This document shows positions 2,143 to 46,749 of a stretch of DNA of 47,804 nucleotides, piece after piece. Position 1 is the first letter of the stretch. Every line of letters begins with the position of its first letter. Location: the IMG/VR virus record IMGVR_UViG_3300018084_000006, positions 1-47,804 of that record; one strand, given 5' to 3'. The stretch comes from a virus. Under the pieces are notes generated by a model, which saw only the letters and a program-made list of their open reading frames with translations, searched no databases and had not been told where the DNA came from. The position numbers and the translations under genes were made by a program.

Positions 2143-2351
2143 AGCTTCTCCTTCCTCTTATCCTAATTTGCGTTAGCGGCTGTGCCACAACACATTCACT
2201 TGTAAAGGTGGAACGAGTTGGGCCAGTCGAAGCCGAAATCTGGCACAACAATAAAACTAAACAGTGTGAGAGACGAGTCTATCTTGACTCGATGTATTTC
2301 AAGACTATAGTGGATTGTCCTGCAACAAATAATGAGGTCCAGATTCACTAA
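2139..2351 (+). CDS. Outer-membrane lipoprotein, candidate o-spanin (Rz1-like)
   Basis: The protein has 70 residues with a lipoprotein signal peptide: MKLLLPLILICVSGC, with lipobox VSGC and the lipidated cysteine at residue 15. The mature part is short, polar and has two further cysteines. It overlaps the membrane-protein gene before it (ATGA) and the muramidase after it (one base). A small lipoprotein between a holin-like gene and a lysin fits an o-spanin, which joins inner and outer membranes in the last lysis step. No embedded partner (Rz) is obvious; the single-TM protein at 921-1196 could serve. It supports a Gram-negative host. Confidence 0.6.
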   Translation: MKLLLPLILICVSGCATTHSLVKVERVGPVEAEIWHNNKTKQCERRVYLDSMYFKTIVDCPATNNEVQIH

Positions 2352-2908
2352 TGGAAATCACCCTGGGGCACTGTCAAGCCTGCGCTGATTCCTTAGGCAT
2401 CGCGCCGGAATTAGTCCAAACTGTAGCTAGAGTAGAGTCTCAGGGTGATCCAAAAGGATTCTTATTTGAGCCTCACGTATTTAGCAAGTTAACTAATCAT
2501 ATTTATGATCAGACTCGTCCCGATTTATCTTATCCTAAATGGGACAAAACAAAATACCCAAAACATAAAGAAGATAGATTAGTTCAATTTGGTAAGGCAG
2601 TTTATCTTGAGCCTTTGCGAGCCTATGAGTCTGCAAGTTGGGGCTTGTTTCAGATTATGGGCTACCATTTCAAAGTTTGTGGTTACAGCTCCGCTCTTGC
2701 AATGTCAGCAATCTTGCAATCGAGTGTTGAAGCAAATGTAACTGCATTTGGTAAAATCCTACAGAGTATGTATTTGATTGATACTCTTCGTGCTAAAGAG
2801 TGGGAGAAGTTTGCCAAGATCTATAATGGTCCTGAATATAAATTAAATAACTATCATATTAAGATGCAGAATGAATATGACCGAATTATTAATACCAAAG
2901 TCGCTTGA
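2351..2908 (+). CDS. Endolysin, N-acetylmuramidase (DUF3380 type)
   Basis: The protein has 185 residues. It matches single-domain phage muramidases: an N-terminal helix with ARVESQGDPKGFLFEPHVF (about residues 26-44, with Glu29 the likely catalytic acid), the central ASWGLFQIMGYHF, and the C-terminal YNGP-x-Y-x-x-N-x-Y-x-x-K signature. Enzymes of this family cleave the MurNAc-GlcNAc bond of peptidoglycan. There is no signal peptide and no separate cell-wall-binding domain, so it would need a holin to reach the wall of a Gram-negative host. The TerL start overlaps its 3' end by 38 bases. Confidence 0.85.
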   Translation: MEITLGHCQACADSLGIAPELVQTVARVESQGDPKGFLFEPHVFSKLTNHIYDQTRPDLSYPKWDKTKYPKHKEDRLVQFGKAVYLEPLRAYESASWGLFQIMGYHFKVCGYSSALAMSAILQSSVEANVTAFGKILQSMYLIDTLRAKEWEKFAKIYNGPEYKLNNYHIKMQNEYDRIINTKVA

Positions 2909-11302: not shown

Positions 11303-12063
11303 TGTCAATGGTAGGTTCGTTTCCAAGTATGAGGGAATTGAATCGTAAGACTGTCCGTGGTGCTGTTAATCCATTAGATAAGTCTACGCTAGTTTCTATT
11401 TACCCTCGCCCCATCAAGTTCTTCAATTTAACTCTAACTCCTGGATTATGGAACTTAGAGGCTGGTAGTGTTGAAGAACCAGCAATTTTAGTCGTTGGGC
11501 CATCATCTTGGTTTAGAGATGTTGGACCTGACGAGCCGCTAATCGAAATCGTGCAATCATCCGTGCAAATTGCGGCTTCTCTCATTCAAGACTATCTGAG
11601 TGGAATGTTTGCCTGCAATATGCACGATTCGATGCCTGGATTGTTTTTCGTTCCTGGCTGTAAAACTCATCAGGATGGTTCTATTAATTCAGAAAAAACA
11701 CTTGAGTGGATTAAGGAAGAACATCAGCATCTTATCGCAGCGGCTGTCAAAACTCAACTTGGTTATTGGAGAAATCTTATTAGATATGGGGATGCTCTTT
11801 GGGCTCGTTCCAATGGTAATCCTCTTGTTATTAATGATGAGACTCGAATGGCTGCAAAGTTACTCGGTTCTCAAGATAAAGATTGGATGAAAGATTTCCA
11901 GAATCAAGGTCAGATTCGTTGCTTTGCTTGCGGCTCATTCAAGAGTCCTGATTATCCAATTTGCCAGGCTTGTCATACTATCGATCCTCAGCATCCAAAA
12001 GCGCATTTAATTCAGAAAGCCGCAAGTGGACCATTCGTAGGCTTGACCAGCACAGGTAAATAA
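11302..12063 (+). CDS. Hypothetical protein with C-terminal zinc ribbon
   Basis: The protein has 253 residues. The C-terminal region (about 211-230) holds CFACG and CQACH, a CxxC plus CxxC/H zinc ribbon. The N-terminal half is beta-rich and the middle helical (LEWIKEEHQHLIAAAVKTQ). Zinc ribbons are unusual in connector genes, though the portal here has one too. It lies between an unknown protein and a gp4-like adaptor and shares bases with both neighbours. Function unknown; a structural or assembly role is inferred from position. Confidence 0.6.
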   Translation: MSMVGSFPSMRELNRKTVRGAVNPLDKSTLVSIYPRPIKFFNLTLTPGLWNLEAGSVEEPAILVVGPSSWFRDVGPDEPLIEIVQSSVQIAASLIQDYLSGMFACNMHDSMPGLFFVPGCKTHQDGSINSEKTLEWIKEEHQHLIAAAVKTQLGYWRNLIRYGDALWARSNGNPLVINDETRMAAKLLGSQDKDWMKDFQNQGQIRCFACGSFKSPDYPICQACHTIDPQHPKAHLIQKAASGPFVGLTSTGK

Positions 12064-17798: not shown

Positions 17799-19013
17799 AT
17801 GAAATTAGAAGAAGTAATCCTTAGAGGAGTATTTGCTGCTCGTCCAGCCGCTAACACCGTGGCTGTTGGTACTTTGTATTATGCTACAGATACTCTTGTC
17901 ACATATCAATCAGATGGTTCTTCGTGGAATAGTTATGCTGATAGTGGTTCTGGCTCTTCTAGTTCTAGTATTTCAGCAATCCCTGGAGTAGATGGACTAG
18001 ACGGCGAACAAGGTGAACAAGGTCTTCCTGGTATTCAAGGATTAACTGGAAGTATTGGTCCGACTGGTCCTACTGGCCCAAAAGGTTCTGATGGATCTCC
18101 CGGTATTTCTGGTATTGACGGAGAAGACGGCTTTGATGGATTCCCTGGTATTCAGGGAGATAAAGGCTCTCAGGGAATTCAAGGTTTACAAGGATTAGTT
18201 GGACCACAAGGATTAGATGGTAATGATGGAGAAGAAGGATTTGGATATCCTGGTCCTGTAGGTTCGAGAGGTTCTACAGGGGCTACAGGTCCATCCGGTA
18301 TACAAGGTTCTCTTGGACCTCCAGGAATAGATGGAGAGGACGGAGAACAAGGATCTCAAGGATATCCCGGAACACAAGGTTCTAGAGGAATACAAGGAAT
18401 TCAGGGAGTACAAGGAGTTCCTGGATTAGATGGTTTTGATGGTGAAGATGGATTTAATGGAACTCCTGGAACTAATGGTTCACAAGGAATACAAGGTCCA
18501 ACTGGTCCAACAGGAATAACTGGATCACCTGGTATTCCAGGACTAGATGCTGAAGAATCAGAATATCCTTATATCATCCCAGGTCCAATTGGTAAGACTG
18601 GTCCTGCGGGAAGTGGAGGCGGAGGTAGTGCTACTACAGTAGAAGTAAATTTAAGTGCTACACCTGTATGGAGAGGAACATTTACAATTACTGATGCTGC
18701 TATAAGTGGAACAAGTAAAATATTAGCATGGCAAGCTCCAGGTCCTTATACAGGTAAAGGAACTAGAGCAGACGAAGCTGAAATACAACCTGTATCTATA
18801 ATTGCTGTAAATCCTGGAGCTGGTTCTGCATTAGTATATTGGCAAACACCCCCAATGATTACTTATAGCCCAAGTCCTATATTAGGTCATTACATGAATG
18901 TAGTAACAAATATCGTTACTCAGCCTAAAGATCCTCAAGGTATTGTTCTTGGGAGTCGTCTTAGACTTGGTAAGGTCAGAGGAAACGTAAAATTCACTTA
19001 CATGGTGATGTGA
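17799..19013 (+). CDS. Collagen-like tail fibre protein
   Basis: The protein has 404 residues. Residues about 1-50 (LEEVILRGVFAARPAANTVAVGTLYY) are a fibre N-terminal module shared with the gene at 20056. Residues about 61-265 are Gly-X-Y triplets with many GPTGP, GIQG and GEDG units; such stretches form collagen triple helices, which in phages make stiff trimeric fibres. The C-terminal 130 residues (from SGGGGSATTVEVNLS) form a beta-rich head that may bind the host. Glu-Asp triplets (GEDGEQG, GFDGEDGF) recur about five times, each near a cluster of other triplets, which suggests expansion by repeat duplication. Confidence 0.85.
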   Translation: MKLEEVILRGVFAARPAANTVAVGTLYYATDTLVTYQSDGSSWNSYADSGSGSSSSSISAIPGVDGLDGEQGEQGLPGIQGLTGSIGPTGPTGPKGSDGSPGISGIDGEDGFDGFPGIQGDKGSQGIQGLQGLVGPQGLDGNDGEEGFGYPGPVGSRGSTGATGPSGIQGSLGPPGIDGEDGEQGSQGYPGTQGSRGIQGIQGVQGVPGLDGFDGEDGFNGTPGTNGSQGIQGPTGPTGITGSPGIPGLDAEESEYPYIIPGPIGKTGPAGSGGGGSATTVEVNLSATPVWRGTFTITDAAISGTSKILAWQAPGPYTGKGTRADEAEIQPVSIIAVNPGAGSALVYWQTPPMITYSPSPILGHYMNVVTNIVTQPKDPQGIVLGSRLRLGKVRGNVKFTYMVM

Positions 19014-25729: not shown

Positions 25730-26288
25730 TGATTAGATACTGAACTAGATTCAATCGTTCAACTCTAGTTAAGTCTCTACACGCTGAGCTAATTTTGATA
25801 TGCAATTCTGGATCATGGGCCGCTGACTGGGTTTGTTCCTGGTTAGCGGCTTTTGTATTTTCAAATGGTGTTCCTCGAATATCTGAATATCGTTCTGGAC
25901 CGTAACAAACTGTTTCTCGAATCTCTCCTGCTTTCTCTCTCTTTTCCTTCCTTGCCGCCATCCATAACGTAGCAATAACAGCTATATCGCGTTCCGTATC
26001 AGCAATTGACTCATTCTTCGGAATCTTGTTTCCACTCTCCAATACGTAGAGACGGTATATCTTCTCGCCCAAACGCCCCACGAACCCAGCATCAACTGGA
26101 GAGTGACTGAACATACTAGCAAGAGTGCCAGCAAATTCATAATTAGCAGATGGAGCATTATTGTTAGCATAATCATGACTCTTGATGTCATGGGTTTCTG
26201 CCATTTCTTGGAGTAATTCGTAAAAGAGGGGACTGCCACATCTTTGCCTCTGTGGCCCTTCTGATTTGCCTTCAATATCATAATTCAT
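25719..26288 (-). CDS. Hypothetical phage protein with DYA/N-x-SI-x-DTE motifs
   Basis: The protein has 189 residues. The region KSHDYANNNAPSANYEFAG, then SPVDAGFVGRLGEKIYRLYVLE, then PKNESIADTERDIAVIATLWMA (about residues 36-111) is a compact helical domain with conserved acidic residues. I link it loosely to DUF1599/NMAD-like or dNTP-pyrophosphatase-like folds, which use DE-rich helices to bind nucleotides. The C-terminal 60 residues are less ordered. It is the last gene of the leftward block and hosts the late terminator. Nucleotide metabolism is a guess. Confidence 0.6.
   Translation of the reverse strand: MNYDIEGKSEGPQRQRCGSPLFYELLQEMAETHDIKSHDYANNNAPSANYEFAGTLASMFSHSPVDAGFVGRLGEKIYRLYVLESGNKIPKNESIADTERDIAVIATLWMAARKEKREKAGEIRETVCYGPERYSDIRGTPFENTKAANQEQTQSAAHDPELHIKISSACRDLTRVERLNLVQYLITTI
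25819..25861 (+). terminator. Strong rightward terminator inside convergent gene
   Basis: GCCGCTGA (25819-25826) pairs with TTAGCGGC (25843-25850) and CTGGG with CCTGG, making a 13-bp stem with three G-U pairs and the loop TTTGTT. TTTTGTATTTT follows. This is a standard rho-independent terminator for the late operon, 90 bases past its last stop codon. It lies fully within the coding part of the leftward gene 25719-26288. No T-run exists on the other side, so it should act only rightward. Confidence 0.85.
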
Positions 26289-26515
26289 TATTCTTTAGTC
26301 TCCGCAATTGCATCTGGATCAGAAAATACTACAGCTTTGATAGCCCACATTGCTGTTTGTTCATTCTGAGTAATGGCAATGGCTGTACGACGAGGATCTT
26401 TACATACTTCTTTAATTAAACGTTCACCCTCTGAGAAATGTTCTCTCAGCTTGTTGACTCTCTCCATACCTTCTGGAGATGGCTTGTGATACGCGTAAGG
26501 CTTGTCAATAGGCAT
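26288..26515 (-). CDS. Acb2-like protein, candidate anti-CBASS cyclic-nucleotide sponge
   Basis: The protein has 75 residues. It is helical, with a RVNKLREHFSEGERLIKEVC helix, a short turn with DPRRTAIAIT, then a second helix NEQTAMWAIKAVVFSDPDA. This matches what I know of Acb2 and the related Acb2/Tad1 hairpin domain: a small two- to three-helix protein with R-x-x-AIA-x-T and MWAIKA near the end. Acb2 binds cyclic di- and trinucleotides made by host CBASS (and related) sensors, so the effector is not activated. The start overlaps the end of the large gene upstream with no gap. Binding of signal molecules is inferred from resemblance only. Confidence 0.6.
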   Translation of the reverse strand: MPIDKPYAYHKPSPEGMERVNKLREHFSEGERLIKEVCKDPRRTAIAITQNEQTAMWAIKAVVFSDPDAIAETKE

Positions 26516-29608: not shown

Positions 29609-30279
29609 TCTTCCATTGCTTTTTTGAATCGCTCTAACTTAGTCTTTAATATTCTATTCTCTTCAACAGTAATAATAAGGAATTCACGCATATCAGTGAG
29701 TTCTTTAATAGTATTATCAAGCATTTCGACTGAAATATCTAATTCAGAACGCACACTTTTAGGAACAGCCGTTCCAGATTTCTTTCTACGTTGAATAGCT
29801 ACCCATTGAGTCACTGAACCAAGAGTAGTTTTAATACCAGACTGATTAGCTTTTTGAAATAAAACTCTACCATTATCTGCATTGGATTTGGACCAATCAA
29901 TATGATCTATAAGAATAGCTAATCTACCCTTAGCTTGAGTCTCCTTTACTTCTTCTTCCAGTACTTTAACTGTATTACTGTTAGGGAAGAATCCTTTAAG
30001 AGTTTCATATGCTGCTTGGGTAGTTTTACGAATTAGAAATGGTATATTTTTTCTTTGGGCATAAGAAGCTAACCAATTATAATGATAAGTAGGTAATCCT
30101 ACTCCAAGTATAATAACCTTAGTATTAGTTGGGACTACAGCTAATAATTGAGCTCCTTCTATTTCTCTGCAATTAATATGCAAAACAGAAGGGTGCGTAG
30201 CATATTCTTTTACAAAACCAATATCCCAAAAAGCATTAACAGCAATTCCACCCTTAGTTAGGTCAACTACTTCATCCAT
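29605..30279 (-). CDS. Hypothetical alpha/beta protein
   Basis: The protein has 224 residues. Alternating strands and helices (VVPTNTKVIILGVGLPTYHYN, then RLAILIDHIDWSKS) suggest a Rossmann- or TOPRIM-like fold in the first 140 residues, and the last 60 residues are a coiled coil (LDNTIKELTDMREFLI). The order beside a DUF3987-like ATPase suggests a replication helper. No motif is firm. Confidence 0.5.
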   Translation of the reverse strand: MDEVVDLTKGGIAVNAFWDIGFVKEYATHPSVLHINCREIEGAQLLAVVPTNTKVIILGVGLPTYHYNWLASYAQRKNIPFLIRKTTQAAYETLKGFFPNSNTVKVLEEEVKETQAKGRLAILIDHIDWSKSNADNGRVLFQKANQSGIKTTLGSVTQWVAIQRRKKSGTAVPKSVRSELDISVEMLDNTIKELTDMREFLIITVEENRILKTKLERFKKAMED

Positions 30280-31517
30280 TAGCTCTCCAACTTTCGTTTG
30301 AGATATGCCTTGTAAGATTCTAACGGCTCACCTGATAATCTAACTTCCCAATCAGAATTACTACCTAATCCTACTTTAATCTTCTTGACCCAACCCATCT
30401 CGACTAGATTGTCTAGAACTTGGTCAAGAGTAAATGTATTATATTCTCCATAACCTTTCCAAAGAAGTTGTTTCTTAGTCATTTTCTGTTCTGACGCGGC
30501 TAATAGGTAATCTAAGACGGATTTTGACGCAGCGGCTAGTGGGTCTGGGCCTCGACCTGAAGTTGTTTTCTTATTTGCGTAGATTAGGGAGGTCACTTTT
30601 TCAATAGCTTCTGTTAAGTGTTGTTCTGTTATCTCGCCTGTAAATTCCCAATCTGCTAAGCACAGGCACATACCTACTTTTAATACATGATCTGGAACAC
30701 GATTAAGGAATCCTGTTTTATCGGGTGTCTGTTCATTACGCCACTTCCTACGCCATGTATTGAACAGAGTCCTAGCTCTATCATTAGGAGCTAATTGACC
30801 TTTATTCTTAGCTATATGCTCTAAATGTGGAACATATTTAGGTGCTACATAATCATCAAATTTGGTTTCTACCGTTGCTTCTGTCTCATCGAAGAGATCT
30901 ACGTTTTTTGATCTTTTCTCTTCGTATATAAGAAGATTTCTACCAATATACCCACCTTCGATATTTGCTTGTGGTATACTGTCATAGAAATGCGCGGGAC
31001 TAGAACCAAAGAGAGCGGTAATGTATGGATTCTTGAGCTTCTCTGCACCGTCACCCTTAAGCAAATTCGTCCACTCTGGATTATAATTTCCATCGTATAG
31101 GTCCGTGAGAATGGTCATTGAATCAGGATCAGCAATAATGGCTGTTGATAACTCACCATTAACGATGAACCCTCTACTGTCTTGTATTGGAGCTTTACCT
31201 TCGATACTTCTAGTTGTGGCTAATTCTTTGATGATAGCTTGGATTGAAGATCGTCCAGCAATAACTCTAGTTGCACCAGCTTTGCTAACAAGCAATTTAG
31301 CGCGATTAACAGGAAAACCTTTTCCAAGTCCGGATTCTCCCAGAAGCATAATATACAAGTTCGGTTTATAGATAAGATCTCCTTTAAGAGTAGTGAGATA
31401 GTAATTGTTGCCAGCACTAGCAGAAATGCAGGCGAGGAAACTATACCAGAGCCAAGGTTTGGGTGTTTCAACATGACTACATTCGTCTACCAGTGAATCT
31501 ATCCAATTCTGCCTCAT
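30279..31517 (-). CDS. DUF3987-like ATPase, replication helicase or primase-associated
   Basis: The protein has 412 residues. The P-loop GESGLGKG is at residues 60-67; a later acidic strand (GFIVNGELSTAII, about 113-125) fits the Walker B region, where E usually follows. The C-terminal part (about 330-400) looks like a winged-helix domain. In phages this family lies beside primase or polymerase genes and probably unwinds or loads DNA. It sits one gene cluster downstream of the PolA-like gene. No separate primase is seen, so this protein or a host one must supply primers. Confidence 0.7.
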   Translation of the reverse strand: MRQNWIDSLVDECSHVETPKPWLWYSFLACISASAGNNYYLTTLKGDLIYKPNLYIMLLGESGLGKGFPVNRAKLLVSKAGATRVIAGRSSIQAIIKELATTRSIEGKAPIQDSRGFIVNGELSTAIIADPDSMTILTDLYDGNYNPEWTNLLKGDGAEKLKNPYITALFGSSPAHFYDSIPQANIEGGYIGRNLLIYEEKRSKNVDLFDETEATVETKFDDYVAPKYVPHLEHIAKNKGQLAPNDRARTLFNTWRRKWRNEQTPDKTGFLNRVPDHVLKVGMCLCLADWEFTGEITEQHLTEAIEKVTSLIYANKKTTSGRGPDPLAAASKSVLDYLLAASEQKMTKKQLLWKGYGEYNTFTLDQVLDNLVEMGWVKKIKVGLGSNSDWEVRLSGEPLESYKAYLKRKLES

Positions 31518-31884: not shown

Positions 31885-32168
31885 ACTTTATCCCTATCAA
31901 ACATATTGTCAACTTCCTTTCCAATGTGCTCCTTAATAGCCTCCCGAATGCTGGTTTGAATATAATTTCTGGTTTCTTGAGACATTAAAATCTCATCTAC
32001 TATAAACATTAATTCGGCTTGTTTTAGCATAATAGATCTGTTAATTAAATCTTTAATTACGTGATTGGCAAAATTTTTACCATGAAACAATAATTCTACC
32101 TCACTGATATACGCAGTGAGAGTGACTAGTTTCTTCTCTGGTATTTTACCCTCTTCAAAATTAATCAA
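31881..32168 (-). CDS. Hypothetical helical protein
   Basis: The protein has 95 residues and is mostly helical. It starts with TTG at 32168, overlapping the polymerase stop (TTGA), with AGGAAGG upstream inside the polymerase gene. This makes coupled translation with the polymerase likely. It may be an accessory to replication; no motif seen. Confidence 0.55.
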   Translation of the reverse strand: MINFEEGKIPEKKLVTLTAYISEVELLFHGKNFANHVIKDLINRSIMLKQAELMFIVDEILMSQETRNYIQTSIREAIKEHIGKEVDNMFDRDKV

Positions 32169-34654
32169 ATCTTCACCTTCCTCATCTCTGCGTAGTTAGT
32201 ATCGCTTATCTCAATATCACAAGGAATAGTAAGAATAATATCTCGTTTCAAGCTGCAATACGTAGAGAAGTCTATTGGGGTCTGCATATGCTGTTTTATC
32301 AACTTGGCATATGGTTCCCAGTTATTCGCAGGCGCTTGCATCAGTAGACTATCATGGTTTTCAGATATCCACATCATAGCCTTGTCGCCATTCAACTCTT
32401 CATCGATCTTGAGTGCGGCTCCTTGAACTAGATGAGCTACTGTTCGCTGCGGGATGTTTGCATAACCTTCTTTATAAGTGGAATCATCCATCCTCCCATT
32501 AAATATTCGAACCCCTCCAAAAGGATCAATAAGAGTTCGAGTATATTCAAGACAATCAATAATATCAGTATGAAACTTACCTTTAATCCTCGGAGAAGCA
32601 GCGTGGAAAAGCTTGAGCATTTCTCCGGCTTTCCAACTAGAGATCGATATGGGAATATCAAACTTTTGGGCATCTGTATTAAACTCCAACATGAACCTAT
32701 TAGAGCCCATGTCATAATTACCAGCGTGACGAGTTTTCTTACCACAGAACCTCGCTGGATCTTCCTTATCCATGTCATCGACTATTTTGATATAACCAGG
32801 CTGTAAGTTCAGCTCCTTAGTCATACCCATGATAAGGCCAGCCGTCCGACGGTGAATATCTATCTTGTCAAATGCAGCTAGAAGATCCCAATCCTCTGAA
32901 AGAATTGCTACTACCCTAGCTTCGGCTTGGCTTGAATCTCCTTGAAGGAATATGGTCCCTTCATCCGGGATGAACATACTCCTAATATCTTTAGCAAGTC
33001 GGCCATGCTTGGAAATAGTGTGAAATGGTATACCTCCAAACTTGCCAGGTCTGAGTGGCTTTTTAAGGCTAGAAGTAGATGATCTACACGTTTCTGTAGA
33101 GATGATGTTGAAAGAGCATTTACATCTAAGATCGTAATCTGGTTTAAAGTTGATATAACGACTACGTTGGGTTCTGATTCTTTTCTCTTCGAGAAGGACT
33201 GTAAGGATTTCTTTCTTGAGTTTGTCTTTGGCATAATTCCCCATTAACGCAACAATAGTATCATCCGCCGTTGGAGCTCTCTTACGCATCTTAAATTTCA
33301 TCTCTTTATATAATAATTGAAATACTTGTGGATACGATGCCACATTAATTTCGTGCCCAATCAGACCTACTAATCTGCTATGGGAACCATCCTGCATGAA
33401 TGTATATTTCTGAGATAATTCGCGTTGCCGAGCGTGATCCACTCTAAAGCCGTTGTTTTCCATCTTCAAATAAAACTTGTGCTTCTTCATCATATAATTG
33501 TAATAATACTCAACAAGCGGAACTTTATGAACTCTAGCTAACTCATATAAGTCAAGCTCTAGTTCTTCATCAATCTCTTTAGTTACGAGCGAATCCATCG
33601 CGTTGTATTTCAACAACTGTTCAATGGGATGCTTGCCTAGCCGGAACTCCTTGCCTTCATCTTTATAGAACGGCTGGCGAGTCCATAAAGACGTCATCAT
33701 TCCTAAGCTTTTCTTAGGCAACTCTGGGAATACTACACGGACCTTAATAATAATATCTGACTTTACGTATGGAATAACAAAGCCACAACGACCTAGTTTG
33801 AACTCATCATATTTGAAATTCTGGCCAATAATACCTAATCGTCGATATTCCTTATCAATCAGACGCCAACACTCGACAAGCTCACTATAGCCCATCGGTG
33901 TGATTTCATGTTTACCTATTTGACGAAGTAGAGGAATGCTAATCGCATGATGGCGATTATAAGCAAAACTAGTAGAGACAGGGATACAATTGATAGATTC
34001 AATATCTGACGCTGCTGCTGTTGCATCTTTATATTGAGTGAAGAAACGATATACGTCAAGAGAGTTTCTTGCGACAACAATTTCTCTTTGTGGAAGGGAT
34101 AAGGTTCTAGTTTTAGATTCTTCAACAGCTCTTGCGATATCATGTTCAATAAGTTTAAGGTAGGTATATTCGAGTCCTCCACTGGAATCTTCTTCTCCAT
34201 CATCACTCCATGTCTTGTGTGAGAATAATGCGGCTGGATGTATTGTAGGGACTACTTTAATAACTCCATCACGTGCAGTAAGAATGCTGCCACGATAGTT
34301 GAGAATGCCATCATAGTTAGTAACAGCTTTAAGAGCTTCGTTTCCGATTGCAAGTATACATTTGGGACGAAACTTCTCAATCTCGTTCGCCCATAATTCT
34401 TTAATAGACTGCTCAAGATCAACGCCAATAAGATGGAGCTGTTTAAAATCGTTAAGAGGAGGGCGATACTTAACAACATTTGTGATATAGCATGCTCCAC
34501 GAGATTGTCCTGCCTTTCTTAATGCGTCGTTTAGGTATTCACCAGATGGGCCTACGAATGGGATACCTTGCTCGTGCTCATGCTTTCCAGGTGCCTCACC
34601 GATTATCATCAAGTCTGGCTCTAATGGCCCTATACCAGCTATGTATCGGCTCAC
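32165..34654 (-). CDS. Uracil-DNA glycosylase / family A DNA polymerase fusion
   Basis: The protein has 829 residues from a GTG start. Residues about 1-180 are a family 4/5-type UDG domain (PDLMIIGEAPGKHEHEQG, then PFVGPSGEYLNDALRKAG and the ITNVVKYRPP loop). About 195-370 is a 3'-5' exonuclease domain (ASDIES, the DxE motif). About 400-829 is the polymerase: motif A GDSSQAEARVVA near 571, motif B KKTRHAGNYDMGSN near 636, motif C NHDSLL at 766-771. It replicates the phage DNA; the UDG part may remove uracil or bind it. The motif C acid is followed by Ser, not Glu, and the Tyr-Gly of motif B reads Tyr-Asp. SPO1 polymerase is a known UDG-PolA fusion. Confidence 0.88.
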   Translation of the reverse strand: MSRYIAGIGPLEPDLMIIGEAPGKHEHEQGIPFVGPSGEYLNDALRKAGQSRGACYITNVVKYRPPLNDFKQLHLIGVDLEQSIKELWANEIEKFRPKCILAIGNEALKAVTNYDGILNYRGSILTARDGVIKVVPTIHPAALFSHKTWSDDGEEDSSGGLEYTYLKLIEHDIARAVEESKTRTLSLPQREIVVARNSLDVYRFFTQYKDATAAASDIESINCIPVSTSFAYNRHHAISIPLLRQIGKHEITPMGYSELVECWRLIDKEYRRLGIIGQNFKYDEFKLGRCGFVIPYVKSDIIIKVRVVFPELPKKSLGMMTSLWTRQPFYKDEGKEFRLGKHPIEQLLKYNAMDSLVTKEIDEELELDLYELARVHKVPLVEYYYNYMMKKHKFYLKMENNGFRVDHARQRELSQKYTFMQDGSHSRLVGLIGHEINVASYPQVFQLLYKEMKFKMRKRAPTADDTIVALMGNYAKDKLKKEILTVLLEEKRIRTQRSRYINFKPDYDLRCKCSFNIISTETCRSSTSSLKKPLRPGKFGGIPFHTISKHGRLAKDIRSMFIPDEGTIFLQGDSSQAEARVVAILSEDWDLLAAFDKIDIHRRTAGLIMGMTKELNLQPGYIKIVDDMDKEDPARFCGKKTRHAGNYDMGSNRFMLEFNTDAQKFDIPISISSWKAGEMLKLFHAASPRIKGKFHTDIIDCLEYTRTLIDPFGGVRIFNGRMDDSTYKEGYANIPQRTVAHLVQGAALKIDEELNGDKAMMWISENHDSLLMQAPANNWEPYAKLIKQHMQTPIDFSTYCSLKRDIILTIPCDIEISDTNYAEMRKVKI

Positions 34655-35042: not shown

Positions 35043-35257
35043 ACCTTCTCCCTAAATCCTTTATAGAGTTGTGTTTTTACAACGTGAAGATCTTGATCAA
35101 AAAACTTATGTGCTTTCTTCATAAATATCTTTTCTGCATTATCTTTATCTTTAGCATAAATAATAATAGTCATACTTCTTAATTCATAATTAGATCTATT
35201 CATCGGAGTGCAAACATACTTAAACATGACAACAGGTTCAATATCTTTATCAGTCAA
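35039..35257 (-). CDS. Hypothetical small protein
   Basis: The start is set at TTG 35257 (72 residues), since AAAGGAG lies 7 bases upstream; a TTG two codons earlier sits too near that site. The sequence has a beta strand set (RSMTIIIYAKDKDNAEKIF). It overlaps both neighbours. No family recognised. Confidence 0.55.
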   Translation of the reverse strand: MTDKDIEPVVMFKYVCTPMNRSNYELRSMTIIIYAKDKDNAEKIFMKKAHKFFDQDLHVVKTQLYKGFREKV

Positions 35258-35528
35258 ATTCAATCTCCTTTGAATTCATCTCTCTCTTCTTATCTCTAAT
35301 CCATTCTAATGCATCACTCATAGATCTAAAACGACGTAATTGCTTCTCATGAGTCTTAACCCATGAAGCTACTGTTATATCCTGACTAACTGAGCCAGTA
35401 CTTCTATTGAGAGATTTAGCTGTCTTCTCAATTGTCCACTGACTCTCACCTTTACACATACCCACATGGTAGTTGTATACCTGGACGGCTCGGTCTAACC
35501 AACCTAACTTAATTAGAGTGAGCTTCAT
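35250..35528 (-). CDS. HTH-type protein, possible regulator
   Basis: The start is ATG 35528 (92 residues), overlapping the upstream stop (ATGA). The segment WTIEKTAKSLNRSTGSVSQDITVASWV (written here in parts WTIEKTAKSLNRS and TGSVSQDI) has the shape of a helix-turn-helix of the type in ParB-like and sigma-like proteins, where TGSVSQDI is the recognition helix start. The C-terminal helix is basic (HEKQLRRFRS). It may bind DNA near the origin or act on transcription. Confidence 0.6.
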   Translation of the reverse strand: MKLTLIKLGWLDRAVQVYNYHVGMCKGESQWTIEKTAKSLNRSTGSVSQDITVASWVKTHEKQLRRFRSMSDALEWIRDKKREMNSKEIEFD

Positions 35529-36055
35529 ATTTTGGTTTTCCAGTGACAAATTGTGCACACGAAAGGCTCCTCTTTCAATCTAAAGGTTGATACTTCTAGA
35601 CCACACTTACTACACTTTCTAAGTTCAGATTCTTTAATCCTATTACCCTGTGCATCATACTTAACATCAGATTTAGGTTTATATTGAGGATTAGTCTCTC
35701 TATCCCAATATGTCCCACCTTTAACTGGATCTTCTTCAGCCGATTTCCAATAAGAATTCCATTTCCTGAACCAGTCATCCTGATAAAATTTAGCTTCTGG
35801 GCTACCTTGGGCTTCGTATGGCTTGCTTCTCCATTGAGGTTCAGAAGATCTCTTTATATCAGCCCAAGTCCCAGAATTAGATGTTGGATTACTAGCTGAC
35901 CTAAATTTGTCAGCCGCTATCCGAATAGGCTTAAATATGGCAAAGTCGTTCTCAGCTAGTATCTTGCAAGCCTTACGTGCGGCTAGGTTAGCTTCGTTGT
36001 CGCTTGGATTATTATTTGCTAATCTTATTATGCTCTTGAGTTTTTCTATGTCCAT
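35525..36055 (-). CDS. DUF2786-like protein with C-terminal zinc ribbon
   Basis: The protein has 176 residues. Residues 1-42 (KLKSIIRLANNNPSDNEANLAARKACKILAEN, read in two helices) match the DUF2786 pattern of two helices with an N/D-x-x-E-A-x-x-A-x-x-K motif. The middle is polar and Trp/Tyr rich. The end holds CSKCG and CTIC, a zinc ribbon. DUF2786 proteins are frequent in phages; the function is not known to me. Confidence 0.7.
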   Translation of the reverse strand: MDIEKLKSIIRLANNNPSDNEANLAARKACKILAENDFAIFKPIRIAADKFRSASNPTSNSGTWADIKRSSEPQWRSKPYEAQGSPEAKFYQDDWFRKWNSYWKSAEEDPVKGGTYWDRETNPQYKPKSDVKYDAQGNRIKESELRKCSKCGLEVSTFRLKEEPFVCTICHWKTKI

Positions 36056-36277: not shown

Positions 36278-36361
36278 TGGTGCCGGAGGAGGGAGTCGAA
36301 CCCTCATGACTTACGTCGAAGGATTTTAAGTCCTTTGTGTCTGCCATTTCACCACTCCGGC
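36278..36361 (-). tRNA. tRNA-Leu(UAA)
   Basis: The 84-base gene folds as a class II tRNA. The acceptor stem is GCCGGAG with CTCCGGC; the anticodon stem AAGGA/TCCTT holds the loop CTTAAAA, giving anticodon TAA. The variable arm is long, the T arm holds GGTTCGACTCC, and CCA is encoded at the 3' end. It would read UUA, a codon used often in the genes here. It lies within a leftward operon, so it is probably cut from a longer transcript. Confidence 0.92.
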
Positions 36362-42004: not shown

Positions 42005-42183
42005 TAGCTCTCTTTTACTGGGAGCAGCATAATTATATCTTTTATTTCGAAGGCAAAAATTGCATCTTGAACTGATGGATTTTCTTCAATTAATTCATTA
42101 CATATAATCTCACATGTTTCCTTGAGAGAACGAAATTCATTTGTAGCAATCTCAAGGCAGAAAAGAACTTTTACAGTTTCCAT
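42004..42183 (-). CDS. Hypothetical short protein
   Basis: This short gene encodes 59 residues beginning METVKVLFCLEIATNEF. It overlaps the helicase end by 13 bases and has GAAGG just upstream of the ATG. Mixed strand and helix; two cysteines (9 and 24). Probably translated with the helicase. Function unknown. Confidence 0.55.
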   Translation of the reverse strand: METVKVLFCLEIATNEFRSLKETCEIICNELIEENPSVQDAIFAFEIKDIIMLLPVKES

Positions 42184-43745
42184 GCCTTCTTTCCCTTTGT
42201 TACGAGAATCATGGCAAGTTCACTCATGAGAGAGTTCTCACTCCATTGAATCTCTTTATTATCTAGTGCTCCTGCTACAATTGCTCGCTTCTGTTCAACA
42301 AGTTCAGTAAAGAACTCATCAATTGTTTCTGAGCAGAGAGTGTAATTAACATTAACTGCATTCTTTTGACCGTATCGATGGAATCTAGACTCAGCTTGCT
42401 CTTCATTTGCAGGATTCCATTGACGTTCCATCATAACTGCATCACTACAGAACTGAAGATTTAAACCTTCACCTGCTGCAAGAGTGGATGCAATTAGAAT
42501 ACGGCTTGCGTTATCATCCTTGAATTTCATTGTCAACTTATGACGATCATCCGAGGACAATGAACCTTTCATCAGTAATGGCTTAATCTTAGTTAACTCA
42601 ATAATCTCAGCATTCAACAGCTCCATCACGTCTTGATGGTGCGTGAAGATTGTTATCTTGCGGTCAGTGCTTTCGATAAACTCTTGAACAAACTCGGCAA
42701 CGGCTGGGACCTTACTAAGACCAGTAATATGACGCATCTTTGTCATAATTACTATCTTAGCCGCTCCGCGTTCGCTCTCAGTTATATCATCAGCGTAGAG
42801 GATATCATCAAGCTCTTTAAGGAGCTCAATGTATATCTTCTTGACCTTGCCATCTAGCTCTACGTGACTAAACCGTCTAGAAAACTCTGGCAAATCCTTT
42901 AGAACCTCATCCTTCGTTCTACGAATGATAAAGTCTTTCGTATCATCGTTGAACTTTTGAGGATTCTTGAGCCCCCCTACTTTACCTCCCCAACCGTTAT
43001 CGTAATGGTCACAATAACTGTCGAGAAATTTAGCATAATGTGGAAATTGTCTTGGCCGCACCAGATTCAATACAGTAAAGTATTCACCTGCATGATTCTT
43101 GATTGGCGTTCCTGACATGGGAATAATGTGTGGAACATCCTTGCACAGCTTCTGGACGGCTTTGGCTCTGTCTGAGAGATGATTCTTGATTCGCTGGCAT
43201 TCATCCAAGATGACTGTTTTAATGTCATCCTTGACAAATCGAAACATCTCTTCATTTTTTGCCATGTCATATGTTACAATGTAGATGTTGAATCCCGGAG
43301 CACAGAATTCCTTACCACTAGATATTACTTGGGTGAGGAATCCTTTTTGACCTAACCAACGGTCAATCTCCCAGAACCATTGTAACTTGACTGTTGAGGG
43401 TGGGATAATGATTGCAGGTAGTAATTCTGCTTGATGTAGTTTTAGCAATGCAAGGGCTTGAACTGTCTTACCTAATCCTTGCATGTCTGCGAGAATGGCC
43501 CGTGCGTTTGCGGCTTCCATTCTCTTTACACCATCAATTTGGAATGGCATTAATGTCTTACCATCCTTAGAAACAATTGAGGTGTATAAATCATCAGCAG
43601 AACCAAGTTGACCTTCGGTAACTAAGTGTCCACATTCCAATGTTACTAGGAATGTTGAACCTAGCTTAACTCTAGTCAACTCAACTGCAATCTTACCACA
43701 ACCTTTTGCTGGGCAAGTTTGCTTGATGATTGTCGATAGTGCCAT
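42171..43745 (-). CDS. SNF2-family helicase/translocase
   Basis: The protein has 524 residues. Motif I is GLGKT at 90-94, motif II is DECQ at 182-185, and motif VI lies in ESRFHRYGQ (about 455-465). These give a Swi2/Snf2 type superfamily 2 ATPase that moves on duplex DNA. An N-terminal part with C11, C16, C38 and H40 may bind zinc. In phages such enzymes are linked to replication or recombination. The start has GGAG 14 bases upstream; a switch-like RNA structure (43770-43914) lies 25 bases before the ATG. Confidence 0.88.
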   Translation of the reverse strand: MALSTIIKQTCPAKGCGKIAVELTRVKLGSTFLVTLECGHLVTEGQLGSADDLYTSIVSKDGKTLMPFQIDGVKRMEAANARAILADMQGLGKTVQALALLKLHQAELLPAIIIPPSTVKLQWFWEIDRWLGQKGFLTQVISSGKEFCAPGFNIYIVTYDMAKNEEMFRFVKDDIKTVILDECQRIKNHLSDRAKAVQKLCKDVPHIIPMSGTPIKNHAGEYFTVLNLVRPRQFPHYAKFLDSYCDHYDNGWGGKVGGLKNPQKFNDDTKDFIIRRTKDEVLKDLPEFSRRFSHVELDGKVKKIYIELLKELDDILYADDITESERGAAKIVIMTKMRHITGLSKVPAVAEFVQEFIESTDRKITIFTHHQDVMELLNAEIIELTKIKPLLMKGSLSSDDRHKLTMKFKDDNASRILIASTLAAGEGLNLQFCSDAVMMERQWNPANEEQAESRFHRYGQKNAVNVNYTLCSETIDEFFTELVEQKRAIVAGALDNKEIQWSENSLMSELAMILVTKGKKAWKL

Positions 43746-45547: not shown

Positions 45548-45732
45548 CAAATGCAGGCTGTTTTTCAGTCTCTATACAGAACAGCCAAACTGTAAGCCAA
45601 TTAAATTTTAGCTTCTACCATCTACACTGGCAATTGATGGGTAAGAAGCTTTTATTTACTCCATGATGCACCTCCATAAGATACTAAAATGGAATGCAAA
45701 CGAAATGATTTGTCATCTAAAGTGGACAGAGG

Positions 45733-46133
45733 TGTCGGTTGTCCTCGTGAGCGGTCGGTGGACATCGGATGACATCGGAACGTTTGGGAACGGTCGGAAC
45801 TGAGCTAAGTATAACACAGTTCGAGACTTGTGTCAATCCCCCCGATGGGCCTCTCTCTCCCCAACTAGTGTATGTCGGTCTGGCAATTTCTCTTCTATCT
45901 GTATACTATTATATATATAAAAAAATATATAGATAATAATAAGAGATAGGTAAAGAGAGTGTCAGAGAGGGAGAGCGACGTCGAGGTTAGGGGGAGAGGG
46001 GGGATAAACCCCGCCAAACTCGCTAAACCCCTGTAAACGCAGGCAGTTACGCCCTGCTCGTCGCGTGAAAAGGCGTGCTGAAACGTTCCGACGTCTCACG
46101 ACATCTCACGACAGCTTACGACAACGACCGACA
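45733..46133. other. Origin-like region: two inverted 10-bp repeat arrays around an AT tract
   Basis: Left array (45733-45784): TCG at 45735, 45745, 45755, 45765 and 45775, and looser units to 45800. Right array (46081-46133), inverted: CGA at 46089, 46099, 46109, 46119 and 46129. Each array is five 10-base units that begin TGTCGGT and end TCGGAACG-TTT; the two arrays match at about 39 of 53 positions by hand. Between them is an AT-rich tract (about 45901-45950) and a G-rich strand near 45983-46002. Phased repeats beside an AT tract are usual for iteron origins; partition sites are an alternative. No long open frame lies here. Confidence 0.65.
45808..45836 (-). promoter_or_regulatory. Early leftward sigma70 promoter
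   Basis: Read leftward, the -35 box TTGACA (45831-45836) is a perfect match, the spacer is 17 bases and the -10 box is TATACT (45808-45813), five of six. Transcription should start near 45801 and cross the left repeat array (45733-45784), then the leader, then the early operon. A host sigma70 enzyme should be able to use it. Confidence 0.85.
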
Positions 46134-46159
46134 GCTATGACCTAATTAGGTGACAGCTA
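46131..46159. promoter_or_regulatory. 12-bp palindrome flanked by direct repeats
   Basis: ACCTAATTAGGT (46140-46151) is a perfect 12-bp palindrome. It is flanked by ACAGCTAT at 46131-46138 and again at 46153-46160. It adjoins the outer edge of the right repeat array. A palindrome of this kind may be an operator for a dimeric regulator. Confidence 0.55.
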
Positions 46160-46198: not shown

Positions 46199-46250
46199 AG
46201 GAAAGAAGAATGGCAGGGAGAATATCTTTATGATAAAAACTCCCTGCCAT
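46199..46250 (-). terminator. Terminator after gene 46309-46749
   Basis: ATGGCAGGGAG (46210-46220) and CTCCCTGCCAT (46240-46250) form an 11-bp stem. Read leftward a TTCTTCTTTCC run follows. It would stop transcription from the upstream gene before it enters the origin-like region. The sequence between the gene and this hairpin holds further palindromes (CGCTAG/CTAGCG near 46274-46290). Confidence 0.65.
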
Positions 46251-46308
46251 CTTCAGCTTACTCCGAAAGAGACGCTAGTATATCTAGCGAGCGAACGAAG
46301 TGAGCGAG

Positions 46309-46749
46309 CTATTCGCCAAACTTCGCAGTGAAGCCAGGACGAATGATGTTGACTGCATCTTCCAAGGAAATACCCAAACCCTTGGAATAGTTCCGAACGG
46401 CAGTCCTGAACGTGAGCTGAACATCAGCAGCCCACGAAGCAACAACGAACTCCGCAAGCGGGTCAGAAGCTGCCTCATAGTTCGCAGCATTCAAGCCACG
46501 AATGAGGTAGTCAGTCAGTTCCGATTCCTTGCTTGTGACAACTGACATGAACTGTTCGACACTCTTGGGAAGCGTATCGGGAAGTGAATCGTCGAATGCT
46601 TCGTAAGTGATGACCTGTGGATTCTTTCCACGAGTAGCACCTACCTTTTGACGTGTTCCAACTCCCGAACGTCCCTTGTTGACTACTTCAGCATTGGCTT
46701 CTGCCTTTTCGCGTGCTGTCTCGACTGCCGTCTTCTGCTCTTCAGACAT
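46309..46749 (-). CDS. Hypothetical protein with own promoter beside the origin-like region
   Basis: The protein has 146 residues. The N-terminal 45 are charged and basic (RSGVGTRQKVGATRGK), probably disordered; the rest is helical (SVEQFMSVVTSKESELTDYL and DPLAEFVVASWAADVQLTF). It is transcribed on its own, with a consensus -10 promoter and a terminator. A small basic-tailed helical protein beside phased repeats could be the factor that binds them, but no DNA-binding motif is firm. Codon choice here is more GC-rich than in the early operon. Confidence 0.65.
   Translation of the reverse strand: MSEEQKTAVETAREKAEANAEVVNKGRSGVGTRQKVGATRGKNPQVITYEAFDDSLPDTLPKSVEQFMSVVTSKESELTDYLIRGLNAANYEAASDPLAEFVVASWAADVQLTFRTAVRNYSKGLGISLEDAVNIIRPGFTAKFGE

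Follow-up and report, generated by a model that had tools for sequence, protein, structure and literature searches.

Results

Gene context of the locus

We analyzed a stretch of 47,804 bases (hereafter the window), which is the complete IMG/VR virus record of an uncultivated phage. Its gene order is the same as that of a 50,250 bp relative (G001) but circularly permuted, from which it follows that the two window ends are adjacent. Transcription of the late genes is rightward, starting from position 43, and that of the early genes is leftward (to 46.7 kb); the site described here thus sits in the divergence between late and early genes, at the head of an early operon that includes polymerase, primase/helicase, helicase, Sak4, exonuclease, PD-(D/E)XK nuclease, and DUF669 genes. 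The relevant features are, in window coordinates:

45733-45783, plus strand: left array, made of five units of 10 bp in which TCG recurs at a fixed step (read as CGA on the transcribed strand)
45808-45836, minus strand: sigma-70-type promoter, TTGACA-17-TATACT, 11/12 consensus matches
45907-45931, no strand: central AT tract TATTATATATATAAAAAAATATATA, an AT-only run of low stability and candidate DNA unwinding element
46081-46132, minus strand: right array, also five units of 10 bp, in the opposite orientation to the left array
46205-46254, minus strand: strong hairpin after the 146-aa gene (-28.3 kcal/mol, z -6.7)
46309-46749, minus strand: 146-aa protein P0001, candidate binder, adjoining the arrays in all relatives that cover both
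42171-43745, minus strand: SNF2-type (SF2) helicase of the early operon, conserved in every relative examined over the region
35250-35558, minus strand: 102-aa helical HTH protein P0006, candidate binder with a weak KorB/ParB structural match
32165-34654, minus strand: UDG-DNA polymerase A fusion, an early-operon gene that belongs to the replication context
30279-31517, minus strand: DUF3987 primase/helicase-like protein (replication context)

Several further genes were observed along the way. The UDG-polymerase A fusion has distant full-length relatives in Microcystis and Desulfofustis phages. A 75-aa protein (26288-26515, minus strand) matches the Acb2/Tad1 hairpin domain with E 5.4e-11 (some members of this family are cyclic-nucleotide sponges that counter CBASS/Thoeris defence) and has ~71-73% identical copies in two relatives (G006 and G007). 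There is one tRNA gene, tRNA-Leu (TAA) at 36278-36361 (minus strand), as well as a collagen-repeat tail protein (17799-19013, plus strand) and an N-acetylmuramidase endolysin gene (2351-2908, plus strand) that immediately precedes the gene for the large terminase. For the host, two scans of bacterial genome contigs for relatives returned no match.

Two inverted arrays with exact 10-bp phasing

An earlier note on this DNA had described TCG and its complement CGA as recurring at exact 10-base steps in two arrays, and we recovered five of each: TCG starting at 45735, 45745, 45755, 45765, and 45775 in the left array, and CGA starting at 46089, 46099, 46109, 46119, and 46129 in the right array. A sixth TCG near the left array, at 45794, is out of the 10-bp register. 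Step-10 runs of at least four TCG or CGA occur nowhere else in the window, and across all 64 trinucleotides at steps of 4-30 the window contains just 13 runs of at least five. When compared with 300 dinucleotide shuffles, lag-10 identity over 50 bp lay above the shuffle maximum in both the right array (35, against a mean of 21.5 and a maximum of 28) and the left array (29, against a mean of 20.1 and a maximum of 25), so the phasing withstands comparison with shuffled sequence.

The description of the arrays as inverted copies of one five-unit block also held: a repeat search returned them as the arms of a single inverted repeat (45711-45792 / 46074-46155, 82 nt, 71% complementary), and both blocks start with TGTCGGT and end with TCGGAACGTTT, matching the start and end that had been described.

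The AT-rich tract that had been placed between the arrays was found at 45907-45931. It is the sole AT-only run of at least 20 bp in the window and is included in the window's least stable 50-bp stretch, which starts at 45902. Across 15 genomes, the tract forms the least stable 50-bp window in 13 and the second least stable in the other two. Separately, we observed that the contigs of several relatives (L073, L076, L069, L031, L024, L034, and G030) stop within roughly 200 bp of the AT tract, which could mean that the tract assembles poorly, or else that these are genuine DNA ends or replication intermediates. TAA/TAT-repeat AT tracts of more than 100 bp in two relatives (G014 at 11534 and G032 at 31198) lie elsewhere than the arrays and are unlike the arrays' AT tract.

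Promoter and flanking elements

In the window, the promoter separates the AT tract from the left array, which we refer to as array B, the promoter-side array. It reads across this array into the early/replication operon, such that array B starts within the first tens of transcribed bases. In relatives, the same interval always contains a near-consensus sigma-70 promoter, usually at a distance of 30-70 bp from the AT tract across loci, with the tract upstream and its end 17-97 bp from the -35 element. On the other side of the arrays, the hairpin at 46205-46254 is probably a transcription end that separates the 146-aa gene from the arrays. The possibility that the array acts as an RNA element was rejected for lack of a stable fold: predicted folding of the transcript of array B was not stronger than that of shuffled sequence (z -0.24), making DNA the likely target.

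We also found a box, CAACNACTTACAGG, on the promoter side, in the 5' leader between the promoter and array B. This box is conserved in many relatives (e.g., L013, L025, and L028) at ~105-145 bp from the AT centre, is sometimes mirrored on the opposite side (L015, L021, and L027), and is weak in the window. A dyad operator (TGTCC-N-GGACA) spotted by eye at the array edges was discarded, with the strict pattern nearly absent genome-wide.

The design recurs in relatives

The same layout—array, ~150 bp, AT tract, sigma-70-type promoter, and inverted array, beside the 146-aa gene—is fixed in relatives. Scanning whole genomes or large contigs for paired period-10 windows around a low-stability tract, we found exactly one such place per genome in 13 of 16, compared with 1 match in 3.43 Mb of Markov-resampled sequence. 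The other three were a contig cut at the AT tract (G030), a weak case (G035), and a contig without the array-adjacent conserved genes (G025). We had considered G030 as an array genome without the 146-aa gene, and rejected this because its contig is merely cut at the tract. A second route through the SNF2-type helicase yielded 21 loci with detected pairs (20 after removal of one near-duplicate), which together with the window, L018, L025, and L070 brings the total to ~24 distinct contigs that carry the design, and the arrays are thereby conserved in relatives. Most loci below threshold still have the AT tract along with weaker period-10 repeats. Start-to-start array spacing is 328-396 bp in loci with both arrays complete, and the AT centre lies 113-163 bp from array B across loci with differing words. 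Among named phages, the design was not found in Mel-JY34, ctMlz233, or LS06-2018-MD01, which carry a related PolA, and no relatives of the capsid or the 146-aa protein were present in 50,697 named phage records.

Period and symmetry are constant while the word changes

Mean within-array identity was 0.52, 0.46, 0.42, and 0.38 at lags 10, 20, 30, and 40, and at background (0.23-0.25) at lags 21, 31, and 42, indicating a period of 10.0 bp and not the 10.5 bp per turn of relaxed DNA. A short multi-copy repeat is thus held in fixed helical phase, as seen both over these four lags and in the shuffle tests. Inverted similarity between the two arrays exceeded direct similarity in 17 of 19 loci.

The repeated word itself differs from phage to phage: the unit is GTGTCGTAAC-like in many relatives, and reads TTACGTACCA in L028, GCGGGTGAAC in L032, TGCTCGACAT in L071, AATCTGAGAG in L160, and ACGTTGACAG in L138. 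The two arrays of one genome share their word, inverted (identity 0.70 within vs. 0.47 between genomes), and none of 20,000 permutations reached a value as high (P < 5e-5). Slippage alone is disfavoured as the source of this agreement because the copies are 350 bp apart and in opposite orientation. The simplest reading of a shared changing word is one co-evolving DNA binder, probably phage-encoded, and the same pattern argues against a conserved host protein such as DnaA as the binder.

Candidate binding proteins

Two window proteins had been put forward in the earlier note for binding tests, and we treat both as candidates. The 146-aa protein always adjoins the arrays. A search with it returned 35 loci in IMG/VR. 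Among relatives that cover both it and the arrays, its gene is found on either strand, and even where it is divergent (L133, L138, L156, L167, and L181) it is separated from the early operon by the arrays. Searches of Pfam, PHROGs, and NCBIfam assigned the protein to no family with significance, named phages contain no match to it, and its structural model (pLDDT 84) has no match in PDB or BFVD. The 102-aa protein is modelled as a four-helix HTH (pLDDT 89) and weakly resembles the KorB/ParB type, its matches being weak (best E 0.6, TM ~0.5). The correlation of protein with array divergence singled out neither: a partial Mantel test over 13 genomes gave nothing significant.

Within the 146-aa protein, we considered covariation of its TRGKNP loop with array type. 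GT/GS variants of this loop occur in L028, L068, L069-L071, and L073, and the idea was rejected because L069 and L070 keep a TCG array despite the variant. In distant phages (L188-L203), remote relatives of the 146-aa protein with the motif TRGxNSRxI are encoded just downstream of the SNF2 gene, an arrangement that suggests a replication-linked family.

Discussion

A proposed replication origin coupled to the early promoter

We propose, with a probability of roughly 0.6, that the site is an iteron-type replication origin with a second role in regulation of the early promoter. The observations behind this proposal are the layout, the exact period, conservation, the shared word, the least-stable tract, the promoter position, and the replication gene context, and the adjacent, easily melted A+T-rich region of iteron origins is present as the least stable window of 13 of the 15 genomes. 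Protein binding, melting of the AT tract, and the start of replication with replisome loading at the site are inferred from them. One sequence-specific protein, probably phage-encoded, would form a row along each array, a protomer or a dimer occupying every 10 bp so that all sit on almost one face of the helix. Pointing at each other across ~350 bp, these rows would strain the AT tract until it opens, and the opened tract could serve for loading of the DUF3987 helicase/primase, the SNF2-type helicase, and polymerase A. Because one array is located just downstream of the early promoter start, the same binding at array B may also limit or time early transcription and so couple replication to it. 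More speculatively, a row that enforces 10.0 bp per turn would overwind the arrays, with the compensating unwinding passing into the AT tract.

GC skew, which had been suggested as a check on the origin, proved uninformative. In two genomes the cumulative minimum coincided with the site, and in most of the rest it fell where the late operon begins, while pooled fourfold-site skew on coding strands was negative in early, late, and 146-aa genes alike. This shared sign indicates that bulk skew is coding-driven, and the sign change at fourfold sites expected of replication strands was not seen. Since it is confounded by divergent transcription, we dropped skew as origin evidence; it neither supports nor refutes the proposal. 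The earlier origin reading therefore keeps the phasing, the inverted design, the AT tract, and conservation in its favour, gains nothing from skew, and still seems the best reading of the sequence.

Alternative functions

A pure transcriptional switch, in which the arrays are operators of a cooperative regulator looping across the early promoter and the AT tract is an upstream element or bend, is an unlikely alternative to which we nevertheless give some weight. The near-consensus promoter that always separates the AT tract from array B, and the start of array B within the first transcribed bases, are in line with such a switch, and a similar picture would be expected of an operator for which the tract is nothing more than an upstream element of the promoter. 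However, the tract mostly ends too far upstream of the -35 element for a classical UP element and is the least stable part of nearly every genome, strictly symmetric arrays ~150 bp on either side of it are more than repression needs, and neither a repressor nor an integrase is among the matches listed for the 71 window proteins.

We regard as improbable that the terminase small subunit, a protein that binds phased repeats, recognises the site as a pac-like packaging start or as a genome end. Such a role would suit a site in the early/late divergence from which, counting across the record ends, the large terminase gene lies ~5 kb downstream, with the contigs of several relatives ending at or near the AT tract. 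However, those ends may simply arise because the tract assembles poorly, and terminally overlapping (circular) relatives, e.g., G006, G007, G014, G016, and G026, have the array in their interior. The site also adjoins the early promoter, in the early half of the divergence, and its position does not follow that of the terminase genes.

The earlier note named partition sites as an alternative. In the form of a parC-like centromere of a phage-plasmid bound by a ParR-like ribbon-helix-helix protein, we consider this very unlikely: R1 parC does have ten repeats in two groups with a promoter in the middle (PMC5016525) and pB171 ParR binds 10-bp direct repeats (PMC9426499), but in place of the directly oriented 10-20-bp repeats of parC 17 of 19 loci here have inverted clusters, the genes under the promoter are replication genes and not a par operon, and the Pfam/PHROG matches listed for the 71 window ORFs include no linked NTPase (ParM, ParA, or TubZ), ribbon-helix-helix adaptor, integrase, or plasmid-maintenance gene.

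Comparison with described systems

Returning to the origin proposal, the closest functional parallels are found among iterons. In lambda, the O gene contains the origin, in which 19-bp iterons adjoin an A+T region of 40 bp, and plasmid iterons are in phase with the helix (PMC5043065). The phage site would share with ori-lambda and iteron plasmids the replicon-specific initiator-site repeats by an A+T-rich opening region, near an early/replication transcript. Unlike the lambda iterons, which lie within the initiator gene on one side of the A+T region, its units are 10 bp long, intergenic, and set in two opposed arrays with the A+T tract in the centre, and 10-bp units in two opposed clusters are not typical of iterons.

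The symmetry is instead reminiscent of HSV oriS, where inverted boxes surround an AT spacer that melts and the binder, UL9, is an SF2 helicase (PMC12543377). Both share the inverted layout around an AT-rich tract, and the phage early operon also encodes an SF2/SNF2 helicase; oriS, however, has single boxes at much closer spacing, compared with the five-unit phased rows of the phage. We take this resemblance as one of layout only and not of homology, with the phage SF2 helicase a candidate array binder.

With parC of R1 and pB171 the site has in common two clusters of 10-11-bp repeats around a promoter and, if our proposal holds, a row-forming binder (PMC5016525, PMC9426499). The two R1 repeat groups flank the par promoter and are described as direct (PMC5016525), controlling a par operon, whereas the phage arrays are inverted and head a replication operon, with no partition motor among the matches listed. 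Finally, Corndog (Cluster O mycobacteriophages) has, between divergent genes, an AT-rich element of 39 nt accompanied by sets of repeats, which has been suggested as a possible origin (PMC4351075). As described, the Corndog repeats lie to the right of the element and no inverted 10-bp phasing is reported (PMC4351075). By analogy, then, the phage site would work most like an iteron origin, with the symmetry of oriS, and we claim membership by descent in none of these classes.

Implications for uncultivated phages

Our results establish a real, conserved, and well-defined DNA element in a group of uncultivated phages. It is unusual in design, with strictly 10-bp, paired arrays, and judging from its sequence features is most likely a replication origin. 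More tentatively, and at somewhat below even odds, it may represent a previously undescribed class of phage origin, in which opposed rows combine a rapidly changing 10-bp word with constant period, orientation, and spacing throughout a large group of phages, an initiator without a recognised fold (possibly the 146-aa protein) opens the AT tract and gates the early promoter, and each phage has a private word. Such a private word, if true, would resemble plasmid incompatibility groups.

To our knowledge, the origins of most uncultivated phages are unknown. The signature described here is recognisable by a simple scan, once per genome, in a phage group whose capsid and 146-aa protein have no relatives among the named phage records. 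Many changes of the word against an unvarying period, symmetry, and spacing provide a natural experiment on how an initiator and its array shift specificity in concert, and the spacing of 10.0 bp (not 10.5) on both sides of a melting tract would make mechanical unwinding by origin binding directly testable.
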